Shown: positions 14,518 through 19,707 of the stretch, in pieces
How the letters are laid out: the number at the start of each line of letters is the position of its first letter
Position numbering within the stretch: the stretch's first letter is position 1
Assembly: GCA_034231615.1 (NCBI GenBank)
Contig: CM067312.1
Coordinates: forward strand, 1,820,001-1,884,000
Length of the DNA stretch: 64,000 nucleotides
Origin: Meghimatium bilineatum
Taxonomy: Eukaryota; Mollusca; Gastropoda; Stylommatophora; Philomycidae
Direction of reading: 5' to 3'
Notes under the pieces: model-generated
The model's input: only the letters and a program-made list of their open reading frames with translations
Database searches by the model: none
What the model was told of the DNA's origin: nothing
Made by a program: the position numbers and the translations under genes

Positions 14518-14648
14518 TTAACCTGGGCATAAGCAAGGGTTCTTGCATGCTTTAGGACATGCTGACAACATGTACGCTGGGTCATTCTCACATTCCCCCT
14601 CGTACGCCTGGAAGCTGCATGCTGATCCATCTTTACACTGGGCACTCG
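14518..14648 (-). CDS. secreted ShK-domain peptide gene, terminal exon 2
   Basis: The minus strand has a good acceptor (TTGTTTTTCAG| before 14648) and then an open reading of about 43 codons ending at TAA (14518-14520). Entered in phase 1 (the first two bases complete a codon), it has seven cysteines: C-x5-C-x8-C-x10-C-x3-C-x3-C-x-C. The core GECENDPAYM followed by CPKAC is the hallmark of ShK/SXC domains: small disulfide-rich folds found in secreted animal peptides, channel ligands and as add-ons to extracellular enzymes. Exon 1 at 19671-19707 donates exactly one base, and the junction codon becomes GCG (Ala), producing an A-S-A type signal-peptidase site just before the first cysteine. The mature product would be about 40 residues. 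Extra exons in the 5-kb intron cannot be excluded. The function, including whether it is toxin-like, is unknown. The stop right after the domain argues for a single-domain peptide. Confidence 0.6.
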
Positions 14649-14689
14649 CTGAAAAACAATCACCAGGATGGGTGTTAATAAAAGAGAGA

Positions 14690-14990
14690 ATCTATTTATC
14701 TCTCTATTTATCTCTCTATTTATCTCTCTATTTATCTATATATATATAAATTTATCTATCGCTTTATCTCTCTATATATGTATCAATATATTTAATTTAT
14801 CTTATATTCATCTCTCTCTCTCTCTCTCTCTCTCTCTCTCTCTCTCTCTATATATATATATATATATATATATATATATATATATATATATATATATATA
14901 TATATATATATATATATATATATATATATATATATATATATATATATATATATATATATAAATATATATATATATATATATATATATTTC
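14690..14990. repeat. (TCTATTTA)n, (TC)n and long (TA)n microsatellites
   Basis: A tatctctctattta octamer tract at 14695-14735, (TC)n at about 14811-14849 and then an almost pure (TA)n run of about 140 bases. The proposed 5-kb intron of the ShK gene contains this block. Confidence 0.95.
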
Positions 14991-14994
14991 ATTA

Positions 14995-15245
14995 GACAAA
15001 GGCGTTGGACTTAACCGGCCATATTCTCAGAATGAACAGCATAAGAATTCCCCAGCAGTCACTGTATTGGGTGCGACCTGGAGTAAGAAGAAGAGGGAGA
15101 CCTAGAGAAACTCTACGAAGAACCATTAATAGAGAAGGCATGTCAATGAACCTAAACAACACGCAACAATTGAAAAGACCTGGCAACACAAAGACAGAAA
15201 TGGAAAGCTATGGGTTCTGCCATATTCGCAAATTATGACCCTGGA
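14995..15245 (+). mobile_element. LINE RT C-terminal fragment
   Basis: The plus-strand reading contains [39 protein letters not shown] and an NLNNTQQL block. It is nearly the same protein as the minus-strand fragment at 23399-23850, with a frameshift near the end. It abuts the (TA)n tract on its 5' side. Confidence 0.75.
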
Positions 15246-15339
15246 GGAACATAACATAACATACATATATATATATACCTATGTCTTTATCACCTAACTA
15301 CGAGCTCGTATTTATCTATCTATGTATCTATATATCATC

Positions 15340-15460
15340 TACTTATCTATCTATTTATCCATATATATATATATATATATATATATATATATATATATAT
15401 ATATATATATATATATATATATATATATATATATATATAATTATATATATATATAACTAA
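15340..15460. repeat. (TATC)n and (TA)n microsatellite
   Basis: tatctatc words from about 15310, then an (AT)n run of about 80 bases at 15359-15438. Confidence 0.95.
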
Positions 15461-15466
15461 ATATCT

Positions 15467-15760
15467 ATGTTCCTTCAACGTCGAATACGTTACATATGGC
15501 AGAAATCAGAGCTCTCCAGTTCGAGCGATGTGATGCCACTGTGTGTAACTTGCATGTGGTTGAGACCTATAGTCATACCCTCTTTGATGGTTGTATTGCG
15601 AAGAGTCTCTCTTGGTCTTCCTCTTTTTCTTTTGCCGTCTCTTACTCATTTCAATATTTGTAGTGGCAGTCTGCTTGCATTTATTCTAACTATATGGCCG
15701 ATGTAAGTCCCATGTTTTCTACGTATTGTTGTGGAAACATATTGCTTGTTTGGAAGCTTA
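15467..15760 (-). mobile_element. LINE RT C-terminal fragment
   Basis: The minus strand carries YIGHIVRINASRLPLQ, GKRKRGRPRETLRNTTIKEG and a decayed terminal block. It is the same family as 12904-13985. Fragment only. Confidence 0.72.
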
Positions 15761-17070
15761 GTTACAAGAGATTATTACTATTCTCATAATCCAATCTTTA
15801 TCGATTGAACAGAGAACATATTGACAAGATATGTCTATATTGATTCATGAATATCTCTAAATGACCGTGGTGTAGCGTGGAGAATTTTTAGAGTGGAGAC
15901 ATCGAGTGTTCTTTATTTGAGTAGGGAGGTAACTCTCACCACCCTACCGTTTTTCCCCACCAGAATTTCGTATTTACGCTCTAAATAAAGTATTAACTAA
16001 TGTTGTTGTTGTTGTTGTAAAAAACATGTCTTATATAATCTTGTAATGCAGCTCCATTCTTCTTTTCTGCGAAAATGTTCAGTACCCTCTCAATAAATGT
16101 CGATTCTGATGAAAGTGCACGTAATAGTGTCTTCTCAATCGCGAAAAAATTCAAACGTCATGTTTCTTGTTCGAATGTTGTTCATTTAATTTCTGAGATA
16201 TCATTAATTACAAATAATTACACAGACATAATACTAATAGCTTATGCACCGATAATATATTGTAAGAGGTAGGGGAATTCCATTTTCAGTCTGCGATATA
16301 CACGCCATCGTACATTACTTCGAAGCGTATGATTTGTCTGAAGCCAACGTCTGATAGAGCAATAAATCGTTATTACAAGATCAAACGTCAGGTCTTCTTG
16401 GGTAAATAAAAGTTGGATTTCTCAATTATAATATTAAGTTGTCATCAATGCGTGAATACGCGATAATGATTTGGCGTCAAGGACAGATAACAAAAAATAA
16501 TAAACCTGCAATTATCTCTGTGTAATTATTATAGTTTATCTTTCTTTTGACTTTTTGCTTTATACTCCTGTTTGCATTGAAGCGTGGTTTATTATTACAT
16601 TTTTGTTTTAAATCGGCGAAATCTTTTTTTTTTCAATATTCACATATTTACTAATGATTGCAGTAGATAACTATAACTTTGTGTGCGCTATTAAAGTTGT
16701 TTATTCACCGGAGGGGACGTCGAGCATTTTGGCGCCTATTGATGCTAAAACCACGGCTAAATGTTCTTTCAGAGAGAACGCTGCACTTGATTAATTGTTC
16801 ATCATCAAGTAGCATATGATACATAGGATGTAGCAATCATCACCGTTATACATTCCTGCCGATCTTGAAGTCAACCTTCTTCCTGCTTCTGAGAGCGTCA
16901 TGTTCAGGTGGTCATTGATATCTTGAAGTCAATCTTCTTCATGGTCTATCACTTTTACCTTGTCTTAAAATCATCTCGTCTCCATTTTGGTATTCTCTAG
17001 ACTGTTATGTTGCTGGTTATGACAAAACATTCTATTGTTTTATAATCTTTTTTTTTTTTTAGCCAGTTTT
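15761..17070. other. AT-rich unique sequence, no gene supported
   Basis: No array or transposon motif recognised over 1.3 kb. It holds a (GTT)n run near 16003 and an open reading of 65 codons at 16075 without recognisable domain. If the two-exon ShK gene is real, this is intronic. Confidence 0.45.
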
Positions 17071-18550: not shown

Positions 18551-18625
18551 GTATTAGGTTATCAATGCATTAGATAGGGAAAGATACGAATCAGGAAAGG
18601 TTAATCAGAAGATAGACGGGATTTT

Positions 18626-18712
18626 AATCAGTTCCGCTCAGCTGGCACCGATTCGCCTTGAAATGTGTGAATTGACGCCAGCCGAACCGACCTGGTTCAA
18701 ATCACGTCTGTT
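18626..18712 (+). mobile_element. tRNA-derived SINE head
   Basis: Contains an A-box-like CCGCTCAGCTGG (18634-18645) and a perfect B-box-like GGTTCAAATC (18694-18703) with tRNA-like spacing. The surrounding sequence does not fold as a full tRNA by inspection, so a SINE or tRNA pseudogene is more likely. Confidence 0.5.
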
Positions 18713-19300
18713 GTGGTCGCATGTAACCATATCGATAACGTCACAGACAACGATAAAAATGTCACGCAAGTTTGATAGTGATGTCCAGCGTGTAGTACAC
18801 GAACCAGTTCTCTCGTACTGCCAACTTACTAGCGATACGGTTAAGACGTCCAAATTTCAGTCTGGTCCTATCTCTCCATGTGTGTGCTGCTAGGCGTCAT
18901 GGGGAGCCGAAGTCTTCTTTCTTTTATAACTGTGATGCCTCTACCATAGTGCAGCCTTGGTGTTCTAGTGTTTCTCTTATGCCATCTGTGCTAATGCGTC
19001 TGTGGGTCTCACCAATGGCCCACTAGACAAACCACCCATGCAACAGAAAATCTTAGTAGATAACATGTCTTTATATTGAGACTCTTTTATGAAAGCGTTG
19101 TAGTATGTCATCTATACAATTATAGACCCCCTCTGAGTAGAAGACTCCTTCAATAGGCATTGCACTAAGGCGAAAGCTGAAGTCTCCTTGGTATGAAAGA
19201 CATCTCGGAGAAACCACCTACTATACATCATTGTCACCTTGAACTTCGTATTGCTTACATGTCAATAATGTATTTGGTTTCCCTTTTTGGTGGTAAAATT
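18713..19300. other. unassigned, probably retroelement-derived
   Basis: No gene is supported. Minus-strand pieces near 18900-19030 look like degraded coding sequence of a mobile element but I cannot name the family. Confidence 0.35.
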
Positions 19301-19309
19301 CTTTTTACT

Positions 19310-19400
19310 GTTTTCATTGTTTGTTTTATATAATCTTGAGAAAGACCTAACGGTTCGAAACGTTGAAAATGTGTATTGTAATTTGTATGTTTTCTTGTTT
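19310..19400 (+). mobile_element. Penelope-like terminal motif (candidate)
   Basis: Contains gagaaagacctaacggttcg followed by aaacgttgaaaa. The ACC-loop-GGT stem followed by CGAAACG resembles the degenerate hammerhead-like segment at ends of Penelope-like elements. No adjacent ORF of the element is recognised. Confidence 0.3.
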
Positions 19401-19502
19401 ATACCTCATAACCCCTTAATCTTACTGATAGCCCGTCTATTGTGTTCAAGTGAAACTTCAAAAACCTGTGCTCTACGTACATACAATACTTAACTACAAC
19501 CA

Positions 19503-19583
19503 CTATTACACATACATAACTGTAACCATTGCTACATTACATAACTGCAACCATTGCTACATTACATAACTGCAATCACTACT
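19503..19583. repeat. 25-bp tandem triplication
   Basis: Three diverged copies of a ~25-bp unit containing ataactgcaaccattgctac. Confidence 0.8.
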
Positions 19584-19670
19584 ACAAGTTTGTGAATGTT
19601 AACAATTATATTTGCTCGAGCAGAACTGCGTTGAACTAATATAACAAAATAACTCAACACTGTAACTTAC

Positions 19671-19707
19671 CGCCATTTAGACTGACTAACGTCAATAAAA
19701 TGAGCAT
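19671..19707 (-). CDS. secreted ShK-domain peptide gene, exon 1 (signal peptide)
   Basis: On the minus strand an ATG at 19707 opens a 37-base segment encoding MLILLTLVSLNG plus one base and ends at a strong donor (GGCG|GTAAGTTAC). The residues form the hydrophobic core of a short signal peptide. The single leftover base fits the phase of the acceptor at 14648, and the joined codon gives Ala. A TATAATT box lies about 55 bases upstream of the ATG. A second in-frame ATG overlaps that box and is therefore an unlikely start. What is seen is the exon-like layout. That the two exons belong together is inferred from phase, strand and the completed cleavage site. Confidence 0.45.

Follow-up and report, generated by a model that had tools for sequence, protein, structure and literature searches.

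Two short exons on the minus strand of a 64-kb stretch of the genome of the gastropod Meghimatium bilineatum (C15:1820001-1884000, the whole of which is called the window below) raise the question of whether they amount to an entire small gene, with a secreted peptide as its product, or to the beginning of a much larger one. The original prediction favored the former: a signal-peptide exon and a cysteine-rich terminal exon of the ShK type, with a long intron between them. As first described, exon 1 runs from an ATG at 19707-19705 to a GT donor after 19671, and exon 2 from an AG acceptor before 14648 (ttcag/CG, the slash marking the splice site) to an in-frame TAA at 14520-14518, with a joined product of MLILLTLVSLNG-A-SAQCKDGSACSFQAYEGECENDPAYMLSACPKACKNPCLCPG-stop. 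The letters, splice sites and cysteine pattern of both exons are indeed present at these positions and are conserved in relatives, and the first intron of ~5 kb and the Ala codon that joins exon 1 to exon 2 are likewise borne out by the sequence. The gene that contains them is very probably a different one. Exons 1 and 2 appear to open the coding region of a gene that spans 50.8 kb and encodes a type I membrane protein, in which a signal peptide, a seven-cysteine ShK-type module and a five-cysteine module precede a row of sushi (CCP) domains, a transmembrane (TM) helix and a Ser/Thr-rich cytoplasmic tail.

Results

Searching the genome (1.61 Gb in 32 contigs) with exon 2 at expectation values (E) up to 10 gave seven places: the exon itself, then C22:68562184-68562306 (59% identity, E 3.7e-10), and five others, none better than E 0.0135. 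Relative to the codons, the exon 2 counterpart on contig C22 is spliced exactly where the window exon is, at the acceptor as well as the donor, the donors being CCAG/GTTAAA in the window and GATG/GTAAAC on C22. Since the splice sites coincide, the apparent GGT TAA (Gly-stop) of the window is most simply read as G/GTTAA, the start of an intron. Past the position that matches the window TAA, C22 has 121 further codons of open frame; the stop is thus not a conserved feature of this position. Exon 2 is thus most likely an internal phase 1-1 exon, with a TAA that overlaps its donor, and not the terminal exon it was taken for. Where the C15 and C22 copies of exon 2 differ, it is mostly at the third position of the codon (11/13/24 by position, over 41 codons). 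The exon pair is unlikely to be a product of chance: the exon 2 cysteine pattern occurs once in the six frames of the window, and looser ShK patterns matched mostly low-complexity stretches. A protein search with the 55-residue joined product returned no candidate.

Proteins of other species were also sought. A search with an alignment of the family, which scored only the 8,000 candidates with the highest number of shared words, listed 29 proteins; together with an earlier search this made 30 proteins, of which just two have an ShK-like pattern in their first 250 residues. One (P0001) is hypothetical protein BsWGS_27494 of the land snail Bradybaena similaris (690 amino acids), from a genome annotation that drew on RNA-seq according to the available text of PMC12042801. 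The other (P0003) is a Sushi domain-containing protein of the pond snail Lymnaea stagnalis (834 amino acids) with the same domain order. The Bradybaena protein reads CRNPCLCG-TSAFTNDTACDC, followed by CCPs, a TM segment and a tail; its direct passage from CRNPCLC to TSAFTNDTACDC is the predicted exon 2/exon 3 junction. Exon 3 was found as a second small cysteine-rich exon that is collinear between the C15 and C22 neighborhoods, with differences between the two copies of 8/7/13 by codon position in 31 codons; by itself it has no Pfam match. The seven-plus-five cysteine pattern is present in all four sequences (C15, C22, Bradybaena and Lymnaea). Exons 1 and 2 are collinear with their counterparts on C22, and both cysteine-rich modules occur in the Bradybaena and Lymnaea proteins.

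The C15 gene model extends leftward beyond the window, from window position 19770 to window-relative position -31023, and consists of 18 exons that encode 1,059 amino acids with a single terminal stop; 13 CCPs and one TM helix lie between the two cysteine-rich modules and the tail. The C22 paralogue has 10 exons in the same order and on the same strand and encodes 586 amino acids, also with one terminal stop. A scan for the CCP pattern returned 13 exons on the C15 minus strand, left of the window, and four on the C22 plus strand; the opposite strands had none. Used as a profile, these 17 exons recovered the same 17, then one weak place on C22 (E 0.3). Comparison with the Bradybaena protein identified this last place as an exon for a divergent CCP (65% identity, E 9e-23). 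All 17 CCP exons have an acceptor two codons before the first cysteine and a donor one codon after the last. In a splice-site search that scored phase 1 alone, both sites were found at 15/15 of the C15 exons given and at 6/6 of those on C22. In both copies the TM exon enters in phase 1 and leaves in phase 2, and the terminal exon enters in phase 2. A hydrophobic segment, judged by eye, follows the last CCP in the C15, C22, Bradybaena and Lymnaea proteins. Against the Pfam profile PF00084 (cut-off 20.7 bits), residues 1-406 of the C15 model scored 126.5 bits and a partial C22 model 83.5 bits, and matches of the CCP part of the C22 model to sequences in the PDB were to CR1 (best), beta2-glycoprotein I, factor H and CD55. 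For the proposed architecture, the sequence thus shows the exon order, compatible phases, an open frame, and counterparts on C22 and in two annotated gastropod proteins. Positions of the features within the window are given in Table 1.

The C15 tail (terminal exon, window-relative -30663 to -31023) also contains one motif, STYLTV, that resembles an immunoreceptor tyrosine-based inhibitory motif; the C22 model has no match to it, and it was for this reason not used as evidence.

Table 1. Features of the minus-strand gene within the window (window coordinates)
Feature	Position	Strand	Remarks
Exon 1, signal-peptide exon, phase-1 donor	19671..19770	-	ATG 19770 preferred; ATG 19707 in the same frame
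Exon 2, seven-cysteine ShK-type module, internal phase 1-1 exon (most likely)	14523..14648	-	Pfam ShK 20.4 bits; C22 counterpart 59% identical, same splice positions
GTTAA, start of intron 2, also spells an in-frame TAA	14518..14522	-	Same donor position on C22; Bradybaena and Lymnaea proteins continue past it
Exon 3, five-cysteine ShK-like module, phase 1-1	2620..2730	-	C22 counterpart 68567539-68567655 (+); module present in P0001 and P0003

The start codon was probably misplaced in the original prediction. From ATG 19707 the leader is 16 residues long. From ATG 19770, which lies downstream of an in-frame TGA at 19782, the first ShK cysteine falls at residue 38. In the relatives it falls at 36, 40 and 34, and ATG 19770 is preferred because it matches them better. 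First exons that look like signal-peptide exons and end in a phase-1 donor are rare: scanning for them gave three rows on the minus strand of a 144-kb scaffold, two of which are exon 1 with its two alternative ATGs, and two rows on the plus strand as a control. On C22 it gave four rows at two places in 60 kb. One is the counterpart of exon 1 (C22:68557373-68557466); the other (68536506-68536620) was set aside, its frame also matching C15 elsewhere. In a protein alignment, exon 1 and its C22 counterpart score 35, a value reached by 0/2,000 shuffles. A DNA alignment of the same pair counts the other way, being no better than shuffles (115/300 reach its score).

Membership of the ShK family is borderline. 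Six cysteines in ShK order and with near-ShK spacing are present in all four sequences, and the joined exon 1-2 product matches Pfam ShK (PF01549) with E 7.6e-4. The cysteine order and a weak match thus uphold the "ShK-type" label, while the score of 20.4 bits falls short of the curated cut-off of 20.9. The ShK consensus ends in C-x3-C-x2-C. The window module ends in C-x3-C-x3-C, one residue longer, and adds a seventh cysteine. Dimerization, which had been proposed for this cysteine, is not required, because the five-cysteine module matches it. Among solved chains at E up to 10, only 2mcr, a metalloproteinase chain, was listed (E 0.28). The ShK potassium-channel toxin has a Lys-Tyr dyad between cysteines 3 and 4. 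The pair at the dyad position is A-Y in the window, E-Q on C22, E-N in Bradybaena and E-V in Lymnaea (the last two by eye), and block of potassium channels is unlikely because the dyad Lys is absent in 4/4 sequences. The dyad is named in the available text of PMC7333891.

A search of the whole genome with the ShK profile gave 29 matches at E up to 0.001, with exon 2 and its C22 relative not among them. Other ShK genes of the same genome, several of them clustered and all set aside here, lie at C15:53.0-54.5 Mb, C15:42.7 Mb, C4:23.6 Mb, C2:48.7 Mb, C6:11.1 Mb and C9:55.3 Mb. Two of these loci (L001 on C9 and L006 on C15) look by eye like astacin-type metalloproteinases with ShK domains.

Part of the C15 CCP row consists of four tandem units of 2,294-2,295 bases with two CCP exons each (window-relative -16789 to -25966). 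Three are 99.3-99.7% identical to one another, and the fourth is 89.0-89.4% identical to those three. The exons of the fourth unit differ from those of the other units by only 1-2 of 354 bases, so its divergence lies outside the exons. From sequence, the units may be either a recent intragenic expansion or an assembly error.

Identities over the pair of N-terminal modules are 72% for C22-Bradybaena, 59% for C15-C22 and 56% for C15-Bradybaena, by which C15 and C22 seem to have parted before C22 and Bradybaena did; comparisons with Lymnaea gave 51% (C15), 49% (Bradybaena) and 47% (C22). These paralogues would fit an old duplication. The ancestry of Stylommatophora includes a published genome duplication (PMC12328838, in its available text), and an origin of the C15/C22 pair in that event is plausible. 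Upstream of the receptor gene, both contigs have a conserved exon that by eye resembles an acyl-CoA ligase C-terminus (window-relative 100212-100352 (-) and C22:68540466-68540606 (+)). Its orientation relative to the gene is the same on the two contigs, and its conservation on both fits a shared duplicated block. Its match to Pfam AMP-binding_C was E 0.026 for the C22 exon, below the cut-off, and the C15 copy had no match. The raw translated comparison of C15 and C22 was swamped by transposons, and any frame that had over two self or cross matches was removed before it was read; a repetitive exon could have been lost by this step.

Upstream of the receptor gene, the window also contains a local duplicate pair of long single-frame open reading frames of the DUF229 family (39717-41729 and 59652-61682, both minus strand; 84% identical over 664 amino acids). 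Repeat arrays at 32066-32701, 33074-33601, 43653-45622 and 26010-26577 give rise to long open frames that are spurious and overlap one another in different reading frames.

Discussion

The two-exon gene for a small secreted peptide has given way to a gene with 18 exons in the C15 model and 10 on C22, and the products of C22, Bradybaena and Lymnaea run on to CCPs, a TM segment and a tail. Several points weigh against this reading. The C15 gene model is a prediction from sequence, and for exon 3 another acceptor is possible. C22 and Bradybaena have a divergent first CCP that was not found on C15, where a masked stretch may hide it. The donor of exon 2 is the weakest of 17 in the C15 model (-0.3 with a simple matrix, the next scoring 0.8), although it still scores above 89% of the GTs in the scaffold; its C22 counterpart scores 1.7. 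The ShK module is unlisted for the longer models (E up to 10) and for the two annotated proteins (E up to 1), and AlphaFold gave a poor model for the ShK exon, with a predicted local distance difference test score (pLDDT) of 54, a predicted template modeling score (pTM) of 0.26 and short helices at 18-21 and 23-29.

The weak donor bears on two other explanations. Were the transcript to end after exon 2, as the in-frame TAA right at the start of intron 2 and the AATAAA signals at 14445 and 14309 might suggest, the product would be a small secreted ShK-type peptide or, in a milder form, a minor isoform that accompanies the long receptor and arises through intron retention or intronic polyadenylation. 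However, 22% of places on the minus strand are expected to have an AATAAA within 250 bases, the TAA is not conserved, the Bradybaena and Lymnaea proteins continue into the five-cysteine module, and exon 3 is itself conserved with mostly third-position changes; we consider this account highly improbable. A short secreted isoform from exons 1-2 is possible, with little in its favor, because of the donor. That the C15 copy is a decaying duplicate, with the full receptor no longer expressed, would also accommodate the donor, together with the missing divergent CCP and a lower identity to Bradybaena than that of the C22 copy (56% vs 72%). All 18 C15 exons are nevertheless open, with one terminal stop, the CCP row is expanded and not broken, and there is a third-position bias between the copies, though this may come mostly from the C22 side. 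Decay of the C15 copy appears very improbable.

The distance from exon 3 to the first CCP detected on C15, about 9.8 kb and partly masked, would permit a different error, in which a short ShK gene (exons 1-3) has been wrongly joined to a neighboring, separate CCP-TM receptor gene. This is barely credible given that C22 has the same order and strand, that the exon phases fit unbroken, and that two annotated proteins of other species hold both parts.

We favor a CR1-like surface receptor with an ShK-type cap as the most likely product. Its signal peptide would be cleaved and the protein displayed on the cell surface, the CCP row serving as stalk and binding surface, as in CR1 and CD55, and the two cysteine-rich modules capping its tip. 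The first module has one cysteine to spare, which may pair with the second module; the two (7+5) have 12 cysteines together. Such a receptor would bind soluble or particle-bound ligands in innate recognition. An immune-type binding role is suggested tentatively; innate recognition is the least secure step, a doubtful one drawn from analogy with CR1-type proteins. A more elaborate scenario is a receptor family of pulmonate snails, undescribed in the papers searched, in which two ShK-type modules share cysteines (7+5) and so form a tip, locked by disulfides, on a CCP stalk like that of CR1. An old duplicate would now be lengthening its CCP row by tandem two-CCP copying, as expected of a receptor in an arms race, and through its leaky ShK-exon donor would release the tip as well, as a soluble peptide acting as a decoy; as a whole this seems unlikely.

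What was presumed to be a hidden peptide gene is thus corrected to the N-terminus of a large receptor, and the case illustrates that a donor starting GTTAA can mimic a stop codon. The family is already in databases as hypothetical or sushi-domain proteins, with its ShK part unrecognized by Pfam. Among the papers that full-text searches of an open-access library turned up for this domain combination, none reports the order ShK-ShK-CCP-TM. If the gene is expressed, land snails would have a CR1-like receptor with an ShK-type cap and a sushi row that is seemingly still growing, and an old duplicate for comparison.

Comparison with known systems

Rows of CCPs are common to the window gene and to CR1/CD35, CD55, CD46 and factor H, and a membrane anchor is shared with CR1. 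CR1 contains tandem multi-CCP units inside one gene, the unit being seven CCPs in contrast to two in the window gene, and no ShK-type cap is known in CR1 or other CCP regulators. A gastropod protein that combines sushi and ShKT domains, like the window gene, is P-vulgata_14 of a limpet, which the available text of PMC7333891 gives as peptidase M12A, ApeC, CUB, Kringle, SUSHI x2, C-type lectin-like and ShKT; it differs in being listed as secreted, in being a metallopeptidase and in its other domain set. The closest counterparts are the Bradybaena and Lymnaea proteins. Their ShK part has no Pfam match, they have fewer CCPs (5 and 8 Pfam stretches, respectively, plus the divergent one) and they carry that divergent CCP between the five-cysteine module and the CCP row. 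With the window gene they share the signal peptide, the seven- and five-cysteine modules with the same cysteine pattern, the CCP row, the TM segment and the tail.

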